The notes below the pieces were generated by a model. That model searched no databases. It saw only the letters and a program-made list of their open reading frames with translations, and was not told where the DNA came from. From Bacteroidota bacterium (GTDB taxonomy: Bacteria; Bacteroidota; Bacteroidia; Chitinophagales; Chitinophagaceae), in the NCBI GenBank assembly GCA_028875875.1, contig JAGWUV010000027.1, positions 1-64,000 on the forward strand: 64,000 nt of DNA, read 5' to 3'. Below are positions 3,544-22,979 of this stretch, piece after piece. Within the stretch, counting starts at the first letter, position 1. Each line of letters begins with the position of its first letter. Made by a program: the position numbers and the translations under genes.

Positions 3544-5568
3544 CTATTTTGTAAAAGGCATCTTTATTCGCTTATAAAGTTGATCCATACTTAAAATATG
3601 CGGTAAACTCATGCAGGATAAAAGAATAAAGAATATACCCCAAGGATCGTTTTTAAATTCATACATAAAAGCTGCTAAGAGTAAAGCCCCAGCGATACTG
3701 AATGGTAGTGATTTTATCCATATTTCATAAGAGGACATTTTTAGTGTCGATTTTAGGTGTTTCCAACCATGTAAACTATGCTGAAAGGTAAAATAAAAAC
3801 CAAAGCTTAGCAATAGAGGTAGTCTAGATAAAAGTAATAAGTACAAAGTTGTAAATAACATTTTCCATGACTTTGTAATTATAATAAGTGTCATCGCAAC
3901 GAAAAGTACAAAAAATTGAAGATCATGTACTTGTATCTGACTTAGAAACTCTAATTTATTGATCAGTGATAGTCTAGGGATATGTTTTAAAATACTTATG
4001 GTTTCGGTAAAATTGAATATTAATATTATGCATAATAAAGTAATACCCCAAAATAAAGTATAGACGTTTTGCCTCAACTTCCATTCATAGAAATCAGTTT
4101 GCCCAAAATGCCAACTTGAGAATAAAAGAAAGCAGATTAAAGCTATATCAGGTTTAATTATCCATACTATCCCTAAAAGTAAACTCTTAAATAAATACTG
4201 TATAATGAATTTAAAAAAGTCATATTTATTTCGAAGATTTTTATCAATAAGATGATCAACTGCTCCGTGCGATAAGCCAACTGTAATAAAGCCTATGACC
4301 AGAATTACCCAAATGATATTTTGAAAGCCATGTATATATAGGATAATAGCAATAAGACTAAGTAAAAAAGTAAGTAATGACTTAGAAATATTGGATAACG
4401 TAAATAAAATATCGTTAAAGGCAGCTTTTAAAAAAAGATAAATTGGCAGCTTTGAAAAAATTAAAATTTCTTTTGAAATATTCGATTGTTCATTTAAAAA
4501 TTCCAAAATATCTTTAATTGTAACATTGTTGAAAAGTGATTGGAATATTTCTTTTCCTTTATAGGGTTTTTCTTCTAGAATTTTTAATAATAATCTGTCG
4601 TAAAATTTAAACCTACCACTTCTTGAAATTCTAGTATATGGGATATCTTTTATCATTGAATTTGATAGATGAAAGGCATCCAAAACCATAGTATGAAAAG
4701 CATAACCAGTTGATGCTTTCAGCATACCCCCGTTTATACCAGTATTAATCCAGTTTTCTTCTAACTTTTTTATAGCAATATTTGAGGATGTCATTGGTAT
4801 ACAGCCCTCTTCAAGGTCTATGACTTCGTAATCATAGTTGTGTTTTCGTATATAATCTTTCAGTATTTGTTCAGCTTCCTGCTTTTGAATTTTTTCTTTA
4901 CCGAAACGAGTGATTTCAAATAAAGCTTCGCTTTCAGAGAAGGGCAGTATATAAATAAATTGACAGAATCCATTTTGGGGAACATTAAAATCCATAAGTC
5001 TTGCAGAAGACACATCAAAATCGTTATTGAGATTTTTAATTTTCCATCCGACAAAAGATTGTACCAGATAGCTTTGATTTGTCTTGGGTATTAAAAAAGA
5101 GGGTGGCCGACTGTCAAATATTTTTTTTACTAAAATTGTTTCATGTTGTAAAGTGATTTCAAAATAATTTTGTTTGGAAATAATCATAGAGTCTACTAAT
5201 TCATCATATATTATTACATCTAATTCATTTAAACAGGTAGTAATTTTATTGTAAATAGCAGATCCGTTTATATGATAATAATTAAAAGGACTAATAGGTT
5301 GACTATTGTTATCATTAAATGATACAAATGCCCATTTATTACTTATCAATTCATTTAATGTTAGAATAGATATTTCCTCTGAAGTAGCCCAAAAACAGAA
5401 TGTTTTGTGTATTATTTTTTTTAAGTTCGGCTCAAATATTACTATTTTTTTATTAGTAAGTAGATTATTTTCATACATCTTTAGGAGTAACATGCTGTTA
5501 GCAGCACCTAAGCCTGCGAACACAAAGTCGATTGATCTTATTTTTTTACGTATCAGACTCTTTACCAT
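3544..5568 (-). CDS. Fused lycopene beta-cyclase / beta-carotene 15,15'-dioxygenase (CrtY-Blh fusion)
   Basis: 674 residues in one uninterrupted frame. The N-terminal part (about 10-370) is a CrtY-type flavin-dependent lycopene cyclase: dinucleotide-binding loop GLGAAN at 19-24, KTFCFW at 55-60, the catalytic-region motif ALFEIT with Glu218, and GGMLKASTGYAFHTM at 280-294. The C-terminal part (about 375-674) is a Brp/Blh membrane dioxygenase with several hydrophobic helices and all four His motifs of that family: GLSHGAVDH (431-439), SSWHFGQTD (484-492), FQHSLHGWKH (595-604) and SLPHILSMDQ (654-663). Known chemistry: CrtY cyclises lycopene to beta-carotene; Blh cleaves beta-carotene to two retinals. 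The fusion should channel lycopene to retinal for the rhodopsin encoded just upstream. Usual CrtY and Blh are separate proteins of about 380 and 280-300 residues, so both halves are full length. Confidence 0.93.
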   Translation of the reverse strand: MVKSLIRKKIRSIDFVFAGLGAANSMLLLKMYENNLLTNKKIVIFEPNLKKIIHKTFCFWATSEEISILTLNELISNKWAFVSFNDNNSQPISPFNYYHINGSAIYNKITTCLNELDVIIYDELVDSMIISKQNYFEITLQHETILVKKIFDSRPPSFLIPKTNQSYLVQSFVGWKIKNLNNDFDVSSARLMDFNVPQNGFCQFIYILPFSESEALFEITRFGKEKIQKQEAEQILKDYIRKHNYDYEVIDLEEGCIPMTSSNIAIKKLEENWINTGINGGMLKASTGYAFHTMVLDAFHLSNSMIKDIPYTRISRSGRFKFYDRLLLKILEEKPYKGKEIFQSLFNNVTIKDILEFLNEQSNISKEILIFSKLPIYLFLKAAFNDILFTLSNISKSLLTFLLSLIAIILYIHGFQNIIWVILVIGFITVGLSHGAVDHLIDKNLRNKYDFFKFIIQYLFKSLLLGIVWIIKPDIALICFLLFSSWHFGQTDFYEWKLRQNVYTLFWGITLLCIILIFNFTETISILKHIPRLSLINKLEFLSQIQVHDLQFFVLFVAMTLIIITKSWKMLFTTLYLLLLSRLPLLLSFGFYFTFQHSLHGWKHLKSTLKMSSYEIWIKSLPFSIAGALLLAAFMYEFKNDPWGIFFILLSCMSLPHILSMDQLYKRIKMPFTK

Positions 5569-5625
5569 ATATGAAAATAAATGATTTGAACGGAGGAAGT
5601 CTTAAGAAGTATTATTATGAAGATA

Positions 5626-5667
5626 GAAAAAAGGCTATCTTAAGTAATTAAGATAGCCCTTACGTTT
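5626..5667 (-). terminator. Strong bidirectional intrinsic terminator between rhodopsin and crtY-blh
   Basis: Perfect 11-bp inverted repeat GGCTATCTTAA (5633-5643) / TTAAGATAGCC (5648-5658) with loop GTAA. It has an A-run on the left (5627-5632) and a T-run on the right (5665-5671), so it can work in both directions. On the minus strand it lies directly after the rhodopsin stop codon. The rhodopsin message is therefore probably mostly monocistronic, and crtY-blh needs read-through or its own promoter. Confidence 0.85.
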
Positions 5668-5681
5668 TTTTCTAAATATTA

Positions 5682-6401
5682 TTAGTCTTCAGCATTTCTG
5701 CTTAATGAATAAATGACTAATCCAAATCCAATTTTGTTAACAGCATCTCCAATATTATAAACAATATCCATAGCATGAGAAGCTGCTGCGGGGTCTGCAA
5801 CTATCTGAAACCCGAATAATCCCCCTGGTGTACCTAATATATATCCTAATGGATAAATAGCCCATCCAACTAAAACAAACCACGCTAATATGCGTGTTGC
5901 TTTAGCAACTTGTACTCCTGCACTTTGAGAAAGTTTTGCAATTTCGCCAAACCATACCAGATAAGCGATATAGAAATAGGCAATACCTGAAATGATGCCC
6001 CATAATACACTTCTACTACGATCAATAGTTTCACCGAAATATCCAGTAACAAGCATAACCAGAGATGCAAATATTAGCTGCCACAAAAGGGATGATTTTG
6101 CTCCGGCTTTTTTAGTGATCAAATAAAATTCAACACACATCAGAGGCACAGTAAGAATCCAATCTACATATCGAAAAAACGTTGGCGATTCGCCTGTTTC
6201 AAGATTGTAGCCTCGCATATAATAATAATGTACCGCAGCGATGAAGGTAATTAAACCAGAAACCAGAACCGATGTTCTCCATTTTTTCGATGTGTTGTTT
6301 AATTCGAAAAAAAAGAAGACAGAAGCAGCCATCATGGCCATAGTTCCAATAAAGAACGTAAACGCGACATAATTGTCACTTGCAATCTTTAGATGTTCCA
6401 T
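5682..6401 (-). CDS. Proton-pumping microbial rhodopsin (proteorhodopsin/xanthorhodopsin type)
   Basis: 239 residues, seven transmembrane helices. Helix C carries the DTE proton-pump set in RYVDWILTVPLMCVEF: Asp80 (Schiff-base proton acceptor), Thr84, Glu91 (donor). Met88 is at the spectral tuning site (105 in green proteorhodopsin), which predicts green absorption. His58 is the partner His of the Asp acceptor. Asp219 and the retinal lysine Lys223 are in IGDAVNKIGFG of helix G. In helix E, Gly135 (LWGIISGIAY) aligns with bacteriorhodopsin Trp138 and xanthorhodopsin Gly156. That small residue leaves the opening through which a carotenoid antenna reaches retinal. Start ATG at 6401 follows an A-rich leader typical of Bacteroidota. 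Retinal would come from the CrtY-Blh fusion encoded next on the same strand. Confidence 0.97.
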   Translation of the reverse strand: MEHLKIASDNYVAFTFFIGTMAMMAASVFFFFELNNTSKKWRTSVLVSGLITFIAAVHYYYMRGYNLETGESPTFFRYVDWILTVPLMCVEFYLITKKAGAKSSLLWQLIFASLVMLVTGYFGETIDRSRSVLWGIISGIAYFYIAYLVWFGEIAKLSQSAGVQVAKATRILAWFVLVGWAIYPLGYILGTPGGLFGFQIVADPAAASHAMDIVYNIGDAVNKIGFGLVIYSLSRNAED

Positions 6402-13891: not shown

Positions 13892-14076
13892 GTGTCGCTA
13901 TTACCAGCCCATCGCAAAGCCGCCCAACGTTGTAGGTAACCCTATTGCGACACACTACACAAATTCAAAACCATACTGCATGACACTTCATAAATTGCCA
14001 ACTCACAAATTGCAGCACATTTGCAGGCACACAAAACCATACGCACAAGACCAAACCTGCAAAAGAGCTGCAATTT
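13892..14076. repeat. Structured non-coding element E1 (attC-like or REP-like)
   Basis: Two nested structures. First, arms GTGTCGC (13892-13898) and GCGACAC (13947-13953) enclose ATTACC/GGTAAC and the dyad CAACGTTG. Second, AAATTGCAGC (14007-14016) pairs perfectly with GCTGCAATTT (14067-14076). After a symmetric 3x3 internal loop (ACA/AGA), TTTGCAGG (14020-14027) then pairs with CCTGCAAA (14056-14063) around a 28-nt loop rich in CACACAAA. A second copy with compensating changes lies at 19702-19770. It ends 25 bases before the start of the Hsp70-linked operon. Confidence 0.75.
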
Positions 14077-14101
14077 AGCCGACGCTCACTTCAGTACAAC
14101 C

Positions 14102-16021
14102 ATGAGCTACATTAACCCATATGAATTTTTAGGAATTACCTCAACCAATTTATCTGAAGTTGACAGTAAAACTATATTAAAGGAAAAGAAAAAGCTATCA
14201 CAGGAAATTGAATTAAGCGATACTGACTCAATAATTCATAATGGTATTGAACTGACAAAGTCCGATTGTTTAAGAGCAATCGATGATTTAGACGATAGAA
14301 CTATAAAGGAGTTTCATTTTTTTATTTTTAGGAATAAACCTTTAAACGATTTTTTAGCAAAAGGAAGCCTTTTGTTTTTTGAAAAGTATCAGGTTGAAAG
14401 CATTTATAAGTTACCTGCTTTTATAAACTTTGTTGCTCCCTATTTTGAGCCACGATATGACAAAGCATTAAGCATAAATTACAAATCTGGCAACAAAGAA
14501 AGTGTCGAGAAAATACTATCTGTTCAGCCTTTAAGCACTTCATCACTTTATGAAAATTGCTTTAAAGGCACTTATCAAATACTAATTGATGCTGACAGAG
14601 AAATCAACAAACTAATTGACGAGATTAAGGATGAAAAAAGTCCATATATTCAAAAGTCTTTTCGGGGAATTGAAGCAGAAATTAAATCTAAAATAAACAT
14701 TGAGCTAATAAATCTACTACCTCCGTACTTTCAAGGTATCAGAAATCAAATTGCAATGAGCATTCGAAACCTTGCAAGAGATATAAACAATGACCCATAT
14801 AATTTGGTTGAGCCTGCTTTTAAAGTTAGCTCAATTGCAAATGAAATCGAATCTGACGGATTAACCAAACAAACTGTTTCCAAAGGTTACAACATAATTA
14901 AAAGTCGCTACGAAGATTTACTTCAACAAAAAGAAGATGAAAAATATCAACCGCAAATTAACAAATGCTATATACTAATTGATTCAATAGTTGATAAAAG
15001 AGATTCAGTAAATAAAAAAGAAATTTCAGCTTCAGTTGTAAGTAGCTGGATTAATTCCAATATCAATATTGCTGAATTGAATAATCTTCCAAGTGCCGCA
15101 TTTCAAGTTAGGAATTTAATTGCTCTTTCTCTAAAAAGCCTATCTGTTGCTGTTTGGAATAACCTTGATGAAATTGATGTTGCATTAAATGTTTTAGCTA
15201 AAGCTACTTTACTTAAAGTAAATGAAGAAACAAAGGCTGTATTGGTTGAGGCTAAAATTCAGTTAGACGATTTGAAAACTAAAATTCAAAGACAACGATT
15301 AGCCACACTACAACAAGCAGCGAATAATCAAAAAAAAGAAACGTCAAATTTTGGAGTTTTGATAGTAATAGGAATAATCATTTTCGTTATTTATTTGATT
15401 TCAAACTCTAACAATTCCAATAATTCCTCAACTCCATCATACAATGACAATTCGAGCAGTTCCTATTCAACTGCACCAGCAACAGTTGATACCGCCAAAT
15501 CAGATGTTGCTATTCCTCCACAAACCACAGATACCTATCAAACAGAACCAGTGTACAACAAGGTTACAATGCCGAACGGCAATATTTCCAGTTGTTCAGG
15601 CATAACACCTAAATATGATAAAAACATAAGCACCAGACTTATTATTACGGCAGAGCTTACAGATGTTGCAGTTAAGCTTTATGATTATGAAACTGATAGA
15701 TGTATTAGATATGTTTTTGTTAATGATGGAAGCACCTACACAATGAAAAATATTCCTGAAGGTAGATACTATTTGAAAATAGCTTATGGAAACGATTGGG
15801 AGGTTAAAGAGGGCGACCCTATCTGTAAAGGTCGCTTTGCAACACATTCATCATTTAAAAAAGATTTGAGTGTATATGATTTCAACAAAACATATTACGA
15901 TGACGGTCGTGTATCTGTTCCATACTACACATTGAAACTCTACAGAACTTACACAACAAATACGTACGATGATAATTCCGCAGGTAGTTCAATTTCAGAA
16001 TCTGATTTTAATAATAACTAA
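14102..16021 (+). CDS. Membrane-anchored protein with J-domain-like N-terminus, first gene of an Hsp70 operon
   Basis: 639 residues from ATG 14102, which follows the E1 element; a longer frame into E1 is rejected. The N-terminus MSYINPYEFLGITS plus about 60 helical residues looks like a divergent J-domain, but the HPD tripeptide is missing, so the call is tentative. Residues about 190-255 and 310-375 are an internal duplication (NIELINLLPPYFQGIRNQIA versus NIAELNNLPSAAFQVRNLIA). A coiled stretch (375-410) leads to one transmembrane helix (417-434), a Ser/Asn/Thr-rich spacer (435-490) and a C-terminal beta-sandwich-like domain (about 505-615). Topology would place the helical part in the cytoplasm with the Hsp70 and the beta domain outside. 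The next gene starts 2 bases after the stop, so the genes are co-transcribed. Confidence 0.7.
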   Translation: MSYINPYEFLGITSTNLSEVDSKTILKEKKKLSQEIELSDTDSIIHNGIELTKSDCLRAIDDLDDRTIKEFHFFIFRNKPLNDFLAKGSLLFFEKYQVESIYKLPAFINFVAPYFEPRYDKALSINYKSGNKESVEKILSVQPLSTSSLYENCFKGTYQILIDADREINKLIDEIKDEKSPYIQKSFRGIEAEIKSKINIELINLLPPYFQGIRNQIAMSIRNLARDINNDPYNLVEPAFKVSSIANEIESDGLTKQTVSKGYNIIKSRYEDLLQQKEDEKYQPQINKCYILIDSIVDKRDSVNKKEISASVVSSWINSNINIAELNNLPSAAFQVRNLIALSLKSLSVAVWNNLDEIDVALNVLAKATLLKVNEETKAVLVEAKIQLDDLKTKIQRQRLATLQQAANNQKKETSNFGVLIVIGIIIFVIYLISNSNNSNNSSTPSYNDNSSSSYSTAPATVDTAKSDVAIPPQTTDTYQTEPVYNKVTMPNGNISSCSGITPKYDKNISTRLIITAELTDVAVKLYDYETDRCIRYVFVNDGSTYTMKNIPEGRYYLKIAYGNDWEVKEGDPICKGRFATHSSFKKDLSVYDFNKTYYDDGRVSVPYYTLKLYRTYTTNTYDDNSAGSSISESDFNNN

Positions 16022-16023
16022 TT

Positions 16024-16380
16024 ATGGATGCAATTAAAATACCTAAACATTTTCCAGTTGTTCTTAACCAAGTATTCGAGATAGAGAATAAATTAAAAAA
16101 CATTACAGAAGCAAATTCTATTCAAAGAAATCTTGATAGAATAAAAGATTATTTTGAAAATGAGGCATTACAAGATGGACAAGGATTAGTCTATCATAAC
16201 CCAATTGGTGAGCCTTATAATGTTACGAGAGCAGATTGTGAAGCAACAATATCAGGAAATGACCATGAGAATCTTGTAATCATTGAGGTATTAAAGCCAA
16301 TAATATATTTCAAATATGCCAATACGCAAATGATAGTTCAGAAAGCAATTGTCATAGTTCAATCTCAAAATCTAAAATAA
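16024..16380 (+). CDS. Small GrpE-like protein in Hsp70 operon
   Basis: 118 residues with no membrane segment. An N-terminal helix (about 10-50) is followed by LVYHNPIGEPYNVTRADCEA and a beta-rich end (NLVIIEVLKPIIYFKYANTQ then MIVQKAIVIVQ). A long helix followed by a small beta domain, ending in a repeated valine/isoleucine strand, resembles a shortened GrpE, the nucleotide exchange factor for Hsp70. The resemblance is structural rather than by clear sequence match, and position between a J-like gene and an Hsp70 gene supports it. It starts 2 bases after the previous stop and ends 7 bases before the Hsp70 start. Confidence 0.6.
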   Translation: MDAIKIPKHFPVVLNQVFEIENKLKNITEANSIQRNLDRIKDYFENEALQDGQGLVYHNPIGEPYNVTRADCEATISGNDHENLVIIEVLKPIIYFKYANTQMIVQKAIVIVQSQNLK

Positions 16381-16387
16381 TCATATT

Positions 16388-18892
16388 ATGGAAAATAGAA
16401 TAAACTTCGGAATAGATTTAGGTACAACTAATTCTGCCATTGCAAAATTTGTAAAAGGCGATGTTGCAGTATTTAAAGACCCCTTAGATACTGGCAAAGA
16501 GACGTTACCTTCTGTGGTTTATTATAAAACTGATAACATTATAGTTGGCAGTAGAGCCAGGACTTACTTAACACGAGATGCAAAGAATGTTTTCAGCACT
16601 TTCAAAAGAAAAATGGGTACTACTGAAAGTTTTAAAGTGAAAAATTTAAACCAATCAAAAACACCTGTTGAACTATCTGCCGAAGTAATAAAGCAACTTA
16701 AAAGTTTTATTCATTCTGGAGAGATACTTGATGCTGCGGTTATAACAGTACCAGCTTCGTTTGAATTACCTCAAACTAAAGCTACCCAAGAGGCTGGCTA
16801 TTTAGCAGGATTTAAACAGGTAATTACATTACCTGAACCAATTGCAGCAAGTTTAGCTTATGCAAATAAGAAAAAGGAAAATGATATTCAGAATGGTCAG
16901 TGGTTAGTTTATGATTTGGGTGGTGGCACATTTGATGTTGCACTAATGAAAATAAAGGATGGAGAAATAAAAGTACTCGACCACGAAGGCGATAATTTTT
17001 TAGGCGGTGCAGATTTTGACAATTTAATTGTGGAAAAATTTATTATCCCATTCTTAAATAAGAACTACAAATTTCACGACTTAGAAGTAGAACTTAAAAG
17101 CGAAGCAAGCAAGAGAAACGTCTTGTATTATCGCTTATTGCTTTTAGCTGAAGAAGCTAAAAAACAGTTGTCGAGTTTTACATCCACTGAAATCGAATTG
17201 ATAGATATTAAGGATGATAATGATGTAGAAGTTGATACAGTTGTTACAATTACTCGTTCTGAATTTGAGAGCTTAATAAAAGAGCAAGTAGATAGAACAA
17301 TTGAAATGATTAAGAAAATACTTGTTCGCAAAGGACTAAAGCCGTCAGACATTTTATTTACATTAATGGTCGGCGGCTCAACATATATCCCATACGTTAG
17401 AAAGAGAGTTGAAGAAGTTCTACAAATACCAAACAACTGTGATATTGACCCAACAACTGCCATTGCAATTGGAGCAGCATATTACGCAGGTACAAGAGAA
17501 AAAAACTTTTCTAAAGAAGAACCCAAAAAAATCACTCATGGCATTAAAGTAAAATTTGCGTATCAAAAAAATTCACTGGAAGATGAAGAAATGCTTGCTG
17601 TTAGAATCGATGGTAATATAGATGGATTGTACTACCAAATAACAAGAGAAGATAAAGGTTTTGATAGTGGTAGAAAAAAACTTACTGCCAGAATTTCGGA
17701 AGACCTTCCTTTAGTTAAAGAATCATATAACTTCTTCAAATTTGTTGTACTTGATGAACAAAATAACACAATTGATACTGATGCAGAAATTATTGGAATA
17801 GCTCATGGCAAAGTTGAGTTTACAGGCACACCGATTTCCCATGACTTTTGCATTGAGTTAGACAATACAGAAGCCGTTGACAAGTCAACAAAGCTTGAAC
17901 TAATTTTTCAAAAGGGTTCTATTTTGCCTTTGAAGTGGAAGAAAACTTATACTCTACTAAAATCATTGATAAAAGGTACAGACGATAAAATAGTAATACA
18001 CATTTTGGAAGGTTCTCATACATCTATTGCTCAAGCAATAAGCACTGTTGCTTATTTAGAAATTAACGGCAGAATGATTGAAAGAGATATTTTAAAAGGC
18101 ACTGATATAGAGATAAAAGTTGAAATGTCAGAAGATAATGAATTAAAAGCATCCGCTTATTTAGTAATGACTAATCAGGAGTTTAATATTCCTGTAGCCA
18201 TTAAAAACAGGGGTACTTCTGTTGCCAAATTAAAAGAAGATGTGGGGATTTTGAATGACCGAATTGAAACTGAAATTAACCAAGCAATAGATAGGGAAGA
18301 TTATGAAGTTGCAGAAGAATTAACTATACTAAAATCACAGATGCAAGAATTGGAAGATGACGTTGTCAAAATTCAAGATGATGATGTTACAGATAAAAAA
18401 TTTCAATCCGAAGATATAAAGCGAAAGTTTGCTCAAAAATTCTATGATATAACAAAGGATAAGCAAATGTCGTTGTTGAAAGCAAAATACAACGAGGATA
18501 AAGAATGGTGTAAAGAAATTCTTGATGAAAATGGGAATGACCATGACCATAAAATGTTCAATGATATTGTTGCGAGAGAGCAAGTATTTCTTAATTCCAT
18601 AAATCCAATAAAAATTACAGAAGCGATTGATGAGTTAATTGATTTAGGAAGTAACATACTTTGGCGTACTCCTGCATTCCTTGAAGCAAGGTTTAAGAAG
18701 CTAATAGAAAAACCTCAAATATTTAACGACCAAGAGCAAGCTAAAGTTTGGATAGAAGCAGGAACTATAGCTATCCAAAACAAGAACTATGACAAATTAA
18801 GAGAAGCAAACTGGGGCTTAATTTCATTAATGCCAAAAGCAGCAAGAAACAACGATGATTTAAACGACAGGATAAGAATAGGCTTTAAATAA
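16388..18892 (+). CDS. Divergent Hsp70/DnaK-family chaperone
   Basis: 834 residues, about 200 more than DnaK. The N-terminal ATPase domain (about 1-375) is intact: phosphate-1 motif IDLGTTNSAI at 9-18, phosphate-2 DLGGGTFD at 176-183, adenosine motif VGGSTYIPYVRKR at 328-340, and ITVPASF. The canonical interdomain linker and DVTPLSLG block of DnaK are absent; after about 380 comes KITHGIKVKFAYQK. The middle part (380-620) is beta-rich, the end (620-834) is helical and acidic with a long coiled region around 625-660. It is thus a specialised Hsp70, not the housekeeping DnaK. It lies in an operon with a J-like membrane protein, a GrpE-like protein and two membrane proteins. Confidence 0.9.
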   Translation: MENRINFGIDLGTTNSAIAKFVKGDVAVFKDPLDTGKETLPSVVYYKTDNIIVGSRARTYLTRDAKNVFSTFKRKMGTTESFKVKNLNQSKTPVELSAEVIKQLKSFIHSGEILDAAVITVPASFELPQTKATQEAGYLAGFKQVITLPEPIAASLAYANKKKENDIQNGQWLVYDLGGGTFDVALMKIKDGEIKVLDHEGDNFLGGADFDNLIVEKFIIPFLNKNYKFHDLEVELKSEASKRNVLYYRLLLLAEEAKKQLSSFTSTEIELIDIKDDNDVEVDTVVTITRSEFESLIKEQVDRTIEMIKKILVRKGLKPSDILFTLMVGGSTYIPYVRKRVEEVLQIPNNCDIDPTTAIAIGAAYYAGTREKNFSKEEPKKITHGIKVKFAYQKNSLEDEEMLAVRIDGNIDGLYYQITREDKGFDSGRKKLTARISEDLPLVKESYNFFKFVVLDEQNNTIDTDAEIIGIAHGKVEFTGTPISHDFCIELDNTEAVDKSTKLELIFQKGSILPLKWKKTYTLLKSLIKGTDDKIVIHILEGSHTSIAQAISTVAYLEINGRMIERDILKGTDIEIKVEMSEDNELKASAYLVMTNQEFNIPVAIKNRGTSVAKLKEDVGILNDRIETEINQAIDREDYEVAEELTILKSQMQELEDDVVKIQDDDVTDKKFQSEDIKRKFAQKFYDITKDKQMSLLKAKYNEDKEWCKEILDENGNDHDHKMFNDIVAREQVFLNSINPIKITEAIDELIDLGSNILWRTPAFLEARFKKLIEKPQIFNDQEQAKVWIEAGTIAIQNKNYDKLREANWGLISLMPKAARNNDDLNDRIRIGFK

Positions 18893-18899
18893 TATCAGC

Positions 18900-19214
18900 A
18901 TGGTAATTAAAATCATCAAAACAATACTTGCAATTTTATTCTTTATTTGCCTTGCAAATATGCCTTATGGGTACTATCAGCTTGTAAGGTTTTTGGCACT
19001 TATTGGCTTTGGGTTATTAGCTTATTACTCAAATGAAAGCGGAAATAAAATTGAAGCAGTAATTTTTGTTGCATTGGCTATTTTATTTCAGCCGATAATA
19101 AAAATTGCTTTAGGTAGAACCTTATGGAATGTCGTTGATGTAATTGCAGGAATATACTTATTGATTTCCATTTTCCTTAAACCATCAAACAATATAAATG
19201 GAAGAAAAAATTAA
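18900..19214 (+). CDS. Small membrane protein (DUF6804-like)
   Basis: 104 residues with four hydrophobic segments. The pattern MPYGYYQLVRFL, then AILFQPIIKIALGR, LWNVVDV matches what I recall of DUF6804 small integral membrane proteins of Bacteroidota, for which no function is known. It starts 7 bases after the Hsp70 stop codon and overlaps the next gene by 17 bases, so it is translated from the same message. Confidence 0.75.
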   Translation: MVIKIIKTILAILFFICLANMPYGYYQLVRFLALIGFGLLAYYSNESGNKIEAVIFVALAILFQPIIKIALGRTLWNVVDVIAGIYLLISIFLKPSNNINGRKN

Positions 19215-19665
19215 AACGACTATACCTGATTTCGATAGCAAGGAGAAGGAAGAAGATAAGGATACTACCAAATATTTGCTGATTATTTTTATTCCGATAA
19301 TTACTGTTATTATTTTATGTTTCAGGTATCATACTTTAAGAATTATTAGCCTGTGCTTATCTGGGTTTGCGATGGGTTATTTGTCTTACAAATCATATAA
19401 AGCAAGGGAAAAGAAATTGGATAAAGAAATAGTCTCACAAGTGATACTTGTTATATTAACTGCATTCGGTATCTTTTACAAATTCTTTGGTGATTTAGTT
19501 CTATCTTATTGGGTTATTGCATTATCGAGTATGATACTTATGATTGTTTTAAAAATACAAAACGAAAAACAAAAGGCATACATAACCTATTATGTTTTTT
19601 TTGGAGCCATTATAGCAGCACTGATTTTAAATTATCATGCTATTTATTTCCTTTTTAGAGATTAA
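19198..19665 (+). CDS. Small membrane protein, last gene of Hsp70 operon
   Basis: 155 residues. A charged cytoplasmic N-terminus (about 1-24, EKEEDKD) is followed by about five predicted transmembrane segments (25-42, 48-62, 80-98, 105-120, 131-150). No recognised family. Its start codon lies inside the end of the preceding gene (17-base overlap), which implies translational coupling. The next structured repeat begins about 20 bases after its stop, so it closes the operon. Confidence 0.7.
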   Translation: MEEKIKTTIPDFDSKEKEEDKDTTKYLLIIFIPIITVIILCFRYHTLRIISLCLSGFAMGYLSYKSYKAREKKLDKEIVSQVILVILTAFGIFYKFFGDLVLSYWVIALSSMILMIVLKIQNEKQKAYITYYVFFGAIIAALILNYHAIYFLFRD

Positions 19666-19701
19666 GTAATTAGTTTAAACTAATGACGTTTCCGACCCAC
19701 C

Positions 19702-19770
19702 AAGTCAGGCACATTTGCAAGGCACACAAAGCCGACACACAAAACCAAACCTTGCAAAAGAGCCTGCCTT
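19702..19770. repeat. Structured non-coding element E2, second copy of the E1 stem-loop
   Basis: AAGTCAGGC (19702-19710) pairs with GCCTGCCTT (19762-19770) with one mismatch, then an ACA/AGA internal loop, then TTTGCAAGG (19714-19722) pairs perfectly with CCTTGCAAA (19750-19758). The 27-nt loop CACACAAAGCCGACACACAA... is nearly the same as in E1. Stem sequences differ from E1 but stay paired, which is covariation and argues for a selected folded DNA or RNA. Confidence 0.75.
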
Positions 19771-19845
19771 GTTCCAACGCTTCCGGGACACACCCTACTT
19801 CGTTAGACACATACTTTCAATTTGACAAACCCGAAAGAAGGGCTA

Positions 19846-20045
19846 CCTACAACAAGTGTATTGCCAAAATGCAGGCTGACGGAAGCCGTGTTTCAAATAC
19901 AGTAAGTTTGTTGGGCTGCATATCCAGCTTGACCTTATCTATTTTGCTATGTGCATATCATCATCTTTTTTATTTTTACTCAGCAGCGGTCAGCCGGGCG
20001 GACGGAATTCTATTTCCTGCACTTCGGCAATACCTGGACGTTAGC
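19846..20045. repeat. Cassette-boundary-like element E3 (about 200 nt)
   Basis: Begins near ACCTACAAC and ends at GGACGTTAGC. It contains ATATCCAGCTTGAC (19920-19933), shared exactly with E4, and GGACGGAATTCTATTTCC (20000-20017), shared exactly with E5, then a TTCGGCAATACCTG end that recurs in E5. Ends of the type ...AAC and GTTR... resemble integron attC core boxes. No integrase is in the window. Confidence 0.55.
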
Positions 20046-20103
20046 TGCTACTGTAAGACAATTCGCAAACCAAAATTATTTTTCATAAACATAAGATGGA
20101 GAA

Positions 20104-20884: not shown

Positions 20885-21421
20885 ATGCTTTTCAATAATC
20901 AAAAAGTAAAAGAAATATTCAATGACAATTTTATAAAAGCAAGTAATGTTTTAAAGACATTAGATTTTTATTCAAATAGGCATACCAATGAAGAAATAAA
21001 TTTCAGGGGACTTGTTGGTTGGGTCTTTGAAGAGACAATTTTTTCTTGCTTAAACAACGAGTTAAATTCACTGAATCTCCGACATGAATTAAAAGTGCAA
21101 TTCAATTTGTCAAGCTTATTCGTGATTGGTAAAAAAAGTAAAGGGAAAGCTGACCTCTATTTGCATACAGACAAACAAAACTATTTAATTGAACTTAAGC
21201 ATACTGGTGTATTTGGCATTGCTGATTATGACAAATATCGAAAGTATAGAGAAATTGTTAATAACAATAATTTTAAATATTTATACTTGACAAAGGGTGA
21301 ATCTTATGAAAAATTTGTAACTGAATGTAAAAATATTTTTGGTTCAGAAAATGCATTCTTCTTGGATAAGGACGGAGATTGGGAAAAGTTTATCAATTTA
21401 ATTCAAACTGACAATTTATAA
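20885..21421 (+). CDS. PD-(D/E)XK superfamily nuclease-like protein
   Basis: 178 residues, soluble. GLVGWVFEETIFSCL (about 43-57) gives the helix-1 Glu. GKADLYLHTDKQNYLIELKH (about 94-113) gives the core strands with Asp and the E-x-K catalytic pair, spaced as in PD-(D/E)XK nucleases. The rest is alpha/beta (FKYLYLTKGE). Such folds occur in restriction enzymes, Holliday-junction resolvases and many stand-alone defence or mobile-element proteins. No methyltransferase or helicase partner is adjacent, so the role is open. It sits alone between structured elements, consistent with a cassette gene. Confidence 0.65.
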   Translation: MLFNNQKVKEIFNDNFIKASNVLKTLDFYSNRHTNEEINFRGLVGWVFEETIFSCLNNELNSLNLRHELKVQFNLSSLFVIGKKSKGKADLYLHTDKQNYLIELKHTGVFGIADYDKYRKYREIVNNNNFKYLYLTKGESYEKFVTECKNIFGSENAFFLDKDGDWEKFINLIQTDNL

Positions 21422-22733: not shown

Positions 22734-22932
22734 AGCAGCCAACACTGGTATTACTAATAGTGGTGGTGGACATTAGAACAATCAGCAGCAGTAATTCTGC
22801 TATACAGTGGTTCAGGGCTCGACGAATAAAGCCCAGCTTTAGTTCTTAATATTTAACTTTATCAAAAAGCCGGGTAGCAGTTCCGGTGGACGGAATTCTA
22901 TTTCCCCGACATCGGCAATACCTGCTCGTTGC
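22734..22932. repeat. Cassette-boundary-like element E5 (about 200 nt)
   Basis: Begins AGCAGCCAAC and ends CTCGTTGC. It contains GGACGGAATTCTATTTCC (22888-22905), identical over 18 bases to E3, followed by the matching ATCGGCAATACCTG. The middle carries AGCAGCAGTAATTCTGCT and GGCTCGACGAATAAAGCCC, both hairpin-forming. It directly precedes the TPR gene. Confidence 0.55.
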
Positions 22933-22979
22933 CTGCAAGCCGGGCGGGACGCTTAACAACTAAATAAAACTATAACTAT

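Follow-up and report, generated by a model that had tools for sequence, protein, structure and literature searches.

What is the role of a compact operon that encodes a divergent Hsp70 together with its own apparent co-chaperones and membrane proteins in a member of the Chitinophagaceae? The operon lies at positions 14102-19665 of a 64,000-nucleotide stretch of a Bacteroidota genome (GCA_028875875.1, contig JAGWUV010000027.1, positions 1-64,000), and this whole stretch is referred to as the window. It consists of five open reading frames (ORFs) on one strand, the forward strand, which is also that of the gene parts and the two hairpin elements of the operon described below. The intergenic gaps are 2, 7 and 7 bases, and genes 4 and 5 overlap by 17 bases, in agreement with the tight packing described in a first-pass annotation made from the sequence alone. 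We found that the operon very probably encodes a co-inherited, dedicated, membrane-linked Hsp70 set with an altered J contact.

Gene 3 (16388..18892) encodes an 834-residue divergent Hsp70, one of three Hsp70 matches in the source genome. It matches PF00012 at 2e-72 over residues 7-371, and scores 255.1 bits against the DnaK equivalog of NCBIfam, far below the cut-off of 822.55. We compared 30 aligned family members, the window protein included, with E. coli DnaK, HscA and HscC and with the two other Hsp70s of the source genome. The ATPase domain (residues 1-371, 16388..17500) is intact, as had been read from the sequence, and the DnaK residues K70, P143, E171, D194, T199 and D201 are retained in 30/30 members. 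The J-docking residues are altered. R167 is lost in 29 of the 30 members, and R151, N170 (Q in 29), T173 (I or V) and Q378 (Y or F) are lost in all 30, while P419 is retained. R167, N170, T173 and Q378 are present in all of the Hsp70s used for comparison.

These residues belong to the contact with the J domain. In the passages of PMC8215388 drawn on here, D35 of the HPD motif bonds R167 and Q378, H33 bonds the linker residue L391, and P34 touches P419; the same passages describe the HPD motif as needed in every Hsp70 pair so far tested. The N-terminal module of gene 1 is common to 32 J-like proteins from the retrieved loci, near-copies included. The HPD motif was found in 0/32 of these proteins and in 0/8 plasmid or E. 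coli J-like candidates. From the sequences, the loss of HPD on the J side and of most contacts on the Hsp70 side fits a pair that would have been altered together, and the operon parts seem to recognise each other via a rewritten contact.

The VLLLD-type hydrophobic linker is missing from the family alignment, confirming the annotated absence of the DnaK linker. The AlphaFold2 model of the C-terminal half (predicted local distance difference test score, pLDDT, 83.3; predicted template modelling score, pTM, 0.58) contains two successive beta domains followed by a helical part, and the first beta domain (residues about 386-473, 17543..17806) occupies the place of the linker. In this model, the second (residues 475-607, 17810..18208) is a DnaK-type substrate-binding domain (SBD). 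It matches the DnaK SBD with a Foldseek probability of 1.00, reaches a VIA Z of about 13 in the top rows, where 110-123 residues are aligned, and aligns to the SBD by hhalign with a score of 33.0 and E 0.0011, compared to a maximum of 22.0 among 100 permutations. The substrate-binding fold is established on the predicted model, where a helical lid-like region (residues 612-820, 18221..18847, from AlphaFold2 secondary structure) follows. The earlier description of a novel C-terminal half holds only in part: a DnaK-like SBD was found there, which rules out a wholly novel half. What is new in gene 3 is the extra beta domain replacing the linker and the altered J-docking site. In a phylogenetic tree, the family is separate from DnaK, HscA and HscC with support of 100/99, a placement that needs caution relative to HscC because HscC sits on a long branch. 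A Pseudomonas plasmid copy of the Hsp70 nests beside a Bacteroidia copy, suggesting transfer.

Gene 1 (14102..16021) encodes a 639-residue candidate membrane J-like adaptor. An AlphaFold2 model of residues 1-233, built with 14 relatives (mean pLDDT 89.9), has a short helix (6-10), a long helix (22-38), a beta hairpin (43-52) and two helices (53-64, 66-77), followed by a helical bundle. The helix order in this model is that of a J domain, with the beta hairpin in the position of the HPD loop, and the predicted J-like domain covers residues 1-77 (14102..14332). By hhalign, the J-like profile aligned to 30 real J domains over 59 columns at E 0.014, and 0/200 column-permuted profiles scored as high. 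The helical module is present in a second copy at residues about 244-353 (14831..15160), matched as a second J-like profile domain at an independent E-value (iE) of 1.6e-22, which bears out the proposed helical duplication. A single transmembrane (TM) helix is predicted by hydropathy scan at residues 412-430 (15335..15391), and the C-terminal domain beyond it (residues 485-637, 15554..16012), a putative beta domain in the first-pass annotation, has 37% identity to a separate 370-residue protein in locus L038. A TM helix was predicted in 27/32 J-like proteins, often close to the C-terminus. One genome (G173) carries a single family Hsp70 and six J-like proteins at separate places (L039, L133-L136). 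By eye, the tails of these six differ (TM, zinc-ribbon-like, and in one protein ankyrin-like), a picture of one hub with many adaptors.

Gene 2 (16024..16380) encodes a protein of 118 residues. Over 96 columns, its profile aligned to the C-terminal portion of GrpE at E 0.0021 (hhalign), with 0/200 permuted profiles scoring as high, which supports its description as a small GrpE-like protein. For an E. coli relative, GrpE PF01025 was the sole Pfam family (E 0.018, below the cut-off); the window protein had no Pfam match, and none of 21 family members scanned singly matched the GrpE models. From this profile similarity, gene 2 probably encodes a GrpE-like protein with a putative nucleotide exchange role.

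To assess co-occurrence, we screened 395 Bacteroidia genomes. The Hsp70 C-terminal half was found in 21 of them, the source genome included (about 5%, spread over many families). The J-like profile matched 20/395 genomes, 17 of which carry the Hsp70 (hypergeometric p 2e-23), and the GrpE-like profile matched 21/395, 18 of which carry it (p 3e-25), where both p values treat genomes as independent. In the four Hsp70 genomes without a J-like profile match, the N-termini of Hsp70-adjacent proteins, aligned together, matched the J-like profile (hhalign E 9.8e-5, 44 columns). Matches in genomes lacking the Hsp70 were seen for the J-like profile in G040, G153 and G366, and for the GrpE-like profile in G086, G347 and G366. 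Since the J-like gene is unlinked to the Hsp70 in five genomes (on another contig or more than 1 Mb distant), linkage alone cannot account for the overlap. A GrpE-like gene of about 100-120 codons adjoins the Hsp70 in 17/20 other Bacteroidia loci, being interrupted in L038, and the J-like module was found by profile near the Hsp70 in 11/20. The order of genes 1-3 is repeated in L026-L031, where L031 stops within the Hsp70. This recurrence and the adjacency of the GrpE-like gene indicate an arrangement beyond chance. The core genes 1-3 do co-occur.

The remaining two genes encode small membrane proteins. Gene 4 (18900..19214, 104 residues) belongs to DUF6804, as annotated earlier (PF20619, 2.3e-32, 111.4 bits vs a cut-off of 27). 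Among the loci compared, DUF6804 relatives adjoin the Hsp70 only in L026-L030, weakly in L030, and in L040, and relatives of gene 5 (19198..19665, 155 residues) were seen only in L026 and L027. For genes 1, 2 and 5, no Pfam family passed its cut-off. Because their relatives are restricted to few loci, genes 4 and 5 are accessories; of the proposed five-gene system, genes 1-3 recur in other genomes, whereas genes 4 and 5 are confined to close relatives.

We found that the operon is bounded by two hairpin elements. The upstream element (14001..14092, model boundaries) stops 9 bases short of the gene 1 start codon, and the downstream element (19695..19787) has the same orientation. Two copies of the pattern GCACATTTGCA(15-45)TGCAAAAGAGC, oriented alike, stand at 14015-14068 and 19709-19763, and none appeared in 100 shuffles. 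A covariance model, which both copies helped to build, scored the upstream element at 84.6 bits and the downstream element at 95.9 bits, and the upstream element has a DNA fold z of -4.97. Across 16 hairpin copies, the outer stem pairs at 109/144 positions and the inner stem at 49/64, and 0/2000 shuffles reached either value, which is not a strict probability because the copies are related. Same-orientation hairpins also bracket the genes in L027, L028 and L029, the last two of which are near-identical, with the first element stopping 8-9 bases before gene 1. The cassette boundaries are thus observed in four copies. When L026 was compared with the window (flanks of 5.7 kb upstream and 0.8 kb downstream of L026), the match was limited to 14153-19595 at 89% identity; the operon is common to both, and the upstream DNA is not. 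The match to L027 covers 13928-20042, where the L027 sequence itself ends. The hairpin pair and the upstream divergence of L026 support the suggestion of a cassette-like accessory region here. We also observed a 52-base direct repeat, 83% identical, at 19997-20048 and 22885-22936 of the window, outside the hairpins and possibly another boundary.

The hairpins are not confined to this operon. With the source genome left out, the exact pattern was found in 6/58 genomes of relatives, with a reversed control of 0 in all rows, and the covariance model matched 13/38, often several times per contig in one orientation. We examined 14 hairpin regions, comprising all eight exact-pattern regions from other genomes (L168-L175) and six two-hairpin places selected from the covariance-model matches (L176-L181). 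By tool result, 8/14 adjoin restriction-modification, Abi or Argonaute genes, a count without a matched control. These include type III restriction (L170, L175), type I-like restriction with AbiGi (L171), type IIG (L172), type II restriction with a methylase (L173), a type I methylase subunit (L176), a cytosine methylase (L178), and a short Argonaute with an AbiGII-like protein (L180). Regions L179 and L181 appear defence-like by eye alone, L181 being without a PDB match, and the proteins submitted from L168 and L174 had no PADLOC match. Because this kind of cassette often carries bacterial defence genes, a role in defence or stress is possible, and the operon may represent a system of this type that has gone unrecognised.

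Integron gene cassettes, which are able to carry anti-phage systems, are a close parallel to this arrangement. Both have same-orientation imperfect hairpins between accessory cassettes and a tyrosine recombinase near some arrays. Here, such a recombinase is encoded at a distance of about 0.8 kb from the first hairpin of L182 (the L170 contig again), with a XerC-like protein as its best PDB match and IntI4 as the second. Unlike integron cassettes, the hairpin cassettes are several kb long and lack an integron integrase over the cut-off; the comparison of the hairpins covers their covariation. No integron integrase (TIGR02249) was found over the cut-off in 7 genomes (0/1 and 0/6), so integron membership was rejected. 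A search of Rfam gave a single sub-threshold match, taken as chance.

Beyond Bacteroidia, where the survey covered plasmids and E. coli, the family Hsp70 was found on plasmids of Pseudomonas, Vibrio, Shewanella, Polaromonas, Aeromonas, Sinorhizobium and Aminobacter. An E. coli island carries it as well. The gamma-proteobacterial form groups the Hsp70 with a GrpE-like gene, a J-like protein and an AAA+ ATPase, joined in most copies by a TM protein. In the alpha-proteobacterial form, the Hsp70 is accompanied by a GrpE-like gene and by a J-like protein that has a TM helix. The J-like N-termini of L034-L036 matched the Bacteroidia J-like profile (hhalign E 6.3e-5), and the small genes of the proteobacterial loci other than L111 and L112 matched the GrpE-like profile at E 2e-5 to 3e-3. 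By annotation, some proteobacterial copies are inside Tn7-like elements. Ten neighbouring proteins, picked for defence-like annotation from 4/9 loci, were submitted to PADLOC, which recognised GajB and ZorA (of Gabija and Zorya) near L036 and the RADAR component RdrB near L107. Around L111 it identified GajA, GajB and type IIG, and around L112 GajA- and GajB-like genes; a RES-domain gene near L112 was left unmatched. The AAA protein of the gamma form matched the IetA and TRIP13 models of PADLOC via its AAA part (E 2.2e-27 and weaker), and the other proteobacterial system proteins gave nothing convincing against PADLOC. In the E. coli HeN100 island, the gamma form (L107:14630-21413) is separated from the RADAR gene rdrB by a few kb, and E. 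coli NH-21 (L108) has a cut copy of it with IS1. A DYNxRCSSxRY-like stretch after the TM helix was seen by eye inside the alpha J-like proteins (L111:4717-6627, L112:5963-8488), and on a separate TM protein in HeN100 (L107:18951-19637).

We compared the operon with known systems. It is like DnaK-DnaJ-GrpE in having the three roles by homology and the SBD fold, and unlike it in that the linker, HPD and docking residues are lost and the DnaK equivalog score is far below the cut-off. HscC of E. coli with DjlB and DjlC, as described in parts of PMC8215388, resembles the family as a specialised Hsp70 with its own tail-anchored membrane J partners and a sporadic distribution; in the family, the putative J-like partners are assigned by co-inheritance, and most have a predicted TM helix. 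The family differs in having a GrpE-like gene and the extra beta domain, while HscC retains R167, N170, T173 and Q378 and was suggested, in the same parts of PMC8215388, not to interact with GrpE. The family groups apart from HscC in the tree, which calls for caution given the long HscC branch. In the CoCoNuT Type IV restriction systems, CnuD is similar in having an Hsp70-like nucleotide-binding domain and SBD in predicted defence, according to sections of PMC11090510. However, CnuD is fused to or encoded with McrBC parts and has degenerate Walker A-like motifs, while the ATPase residues of the window Hsp70 are intact; a term search of main text of that paper on CnuD found no mention of DnaJ or GrpE. 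A term search of PMC8649781 turned up none of five chaperone words. In titles and abstract starts, no description of an operon of such make-up was found in the literature, consistent with the first-pass statement that no described system of this composition is known.

Taken together, our slightly favoured reading is that the operon spreads horizontally and encodes a self-contained Hsp70 machine that is tethered to the inner membrane and probably protects against phages or other mobile DNA. Taken on its own, the defence role is about evenly balanced. The proposed complete, membrane-tied chaperone cycle stands as far as the conserved set of Hsp70, GrpE-like and J-like proteins with a predicted TM helix is concerned, whereas the cycle itself, with J docking, client, nucleotide exchange, membrane topology and defence output, is what we infer. 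The J-like adaptor would be anchored in the inner membrane by its single helix, and would use its helical module to capture a client or some structure linked to infection. The HPD-less J-like domain may then dock onto its own Hsp70, at the site rewritten to match. Hydrolysis of ATP would clamp the Hsp70 to the client beside the membrane, and ADP release, brought about by the short GrpE-like protein, would reset the Hsp70. In a more specific and tentative form, which we hold to be possible at somewhat under even chances, this would be an anti-phage system with a private Hsp70 cycle. The otherwise near-universal HPD-to-R167 contact would be replaced on both sides and the cycle insulated from the host DnaK network, with several membrane J-like sensors per Hsp70, and the whole would be shuffled as a hairpin-bounded defence cassette.

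Several results weigh against this reading. None of the five proteins matched a PADLOC family at E 0.5, and a Pfam scan of the operon proteins recognised no nuclease, toxin or other effector. The covariance model found no hairpins in L026, L030, L031 and the 20 loci L037-L056, which leaves four close copies, including a near-identical pair, as the basis of the cassette argument. Two hairpin cassettes (L168, L177) contain apparent metal or TonB genes by eye. A tblastn search with two Hsp70 C-terminal halves gave no match in 50,697 phage records, and a scan of viral contigs, in which relatives are reachable only via short peptide patterns, gave 40 pattern matches and no relative. The alpha J-like proteins and the GrpE-like genes of L111 and L112 were assigned by position and eye, without significant profile scores. 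For the 20 Bacteroidia loci, PADLOC showed no clear excess of defence genes vs same-genome control regions: the 139 neighbouring genes matched 51 families at E 1e-15 and the 137 control genes matched 32, in tables that count families rather than genes, with ORFs called mechanically and most families matched by 1-3 genes. Among the matches listed, neighbour families included type II methylases (2 genes), mad3 (3 genes) and PDC candidates, and control families included DpdF, PsyrT, IetA and GajB. A defence neighbourhood in Bacteroidia is therefore unsupported.

This lack of clear enrichment speaks for the main rival explanation, which we consider rather unlikely: a quality-control or stress Hsp70 for membrane proteins, HscC-like, spread as an accessory stress trait and not for defence. 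HscC with tail-anchored DjlB and DjlC, in the account given in parts of PMC8215388, is a described membrane Hsp70 of this kind, many of the J-like proteins end in a C-terminal TM helix, and G173 pairs its one family Hsp70 with several different J-like proteins. However, the defence genes in hairpin cassettes and in several proteobacterial islands, and the patchy, plasmid- and Tn7-borne distribution, argue against this rival.

A second rival questions the J-like domain itself. The N-terminus of gene 1 could be an unrelated helical adaptor, not J-derived, and the Hsp70 an ATP switch without a J-type cycle; we regard this as less likely still. A PDB search with the J-like model gave nothing at E 0.001 or better. 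The J domain 2qsa had the top probability (0.41) among the 50 PDB rows listed, and by VIA its match was weak (Z 5.5, 83 residues at a root-mean-square deviation of 4.2), level with unrelated helical rows, among which it ranked only 43rd. Pfam DnaJ (PF00226) did not match gene 1 and was not one of the 13 families that 16 aligned members matched at E 1. Together with the absence of HPD (0/32), this rules out an ordinary J protein, and the Hsp70 side lacks the J-docking residues as well. On the other hand, the predicted helix order fits a J domain with a hairpin replacing the HPD loop, the J-domain profile match exceeds 200 permuted profiles, and the module is co-inherited with the Hsp70 even if unlinked. 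The earlier claim of a J-domain-like N-terminus is thus supported by the topology of the AlphaFold2 model, and weakened by the weak PDB match and the missing HPD.

A third alternative, that the chaperone gates a threshold switch controlling an effector encoded elsewhere, along the lines proposed for the NTP-dependent (nucleoside triphosphate-dependent) conflict systems of Kaur 2020, is improbable: parts of PMC7159879 on the GAP1-N2 GTPase conflict systems do place HSP70, GrpE and DnaJ-fused proteins together in some GTPase-centred neighbourhoods with a proposed conflict role, resembling the operon, but those systems centre on GTPases and FNIII-DnaJ fusions when compared by gene content, Pfam finds no GTPase, vWA, MoxR or effector domain among the five genes, and the gamma-proteobacterial partner tested is an AAA+ ATPase.

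Elsewhere in the window, a low-GC stretch upstream of the operon (3544-6401) contains a lycopene cyclase/carotene dioxygenase gene and a bacteriorhodopsin-like gene. A 178-residue ORF at 20885-21421 resembles a PD-(D/E)xK-type nuclease by eye, and had no Pfam match at 0.01.

With its ATPase kept and both sides of the J contact changed, this family is a natural experiment on the triggering of Hsp70 by J proteins, and on how a chaperone pair becomes private. The hairpin cassettes offer a route to finding further systems. If the defence role is true, a dedicated Hsp70 cycle would join the bacterial immune machines, in a simple operon suited to laboratory testing.

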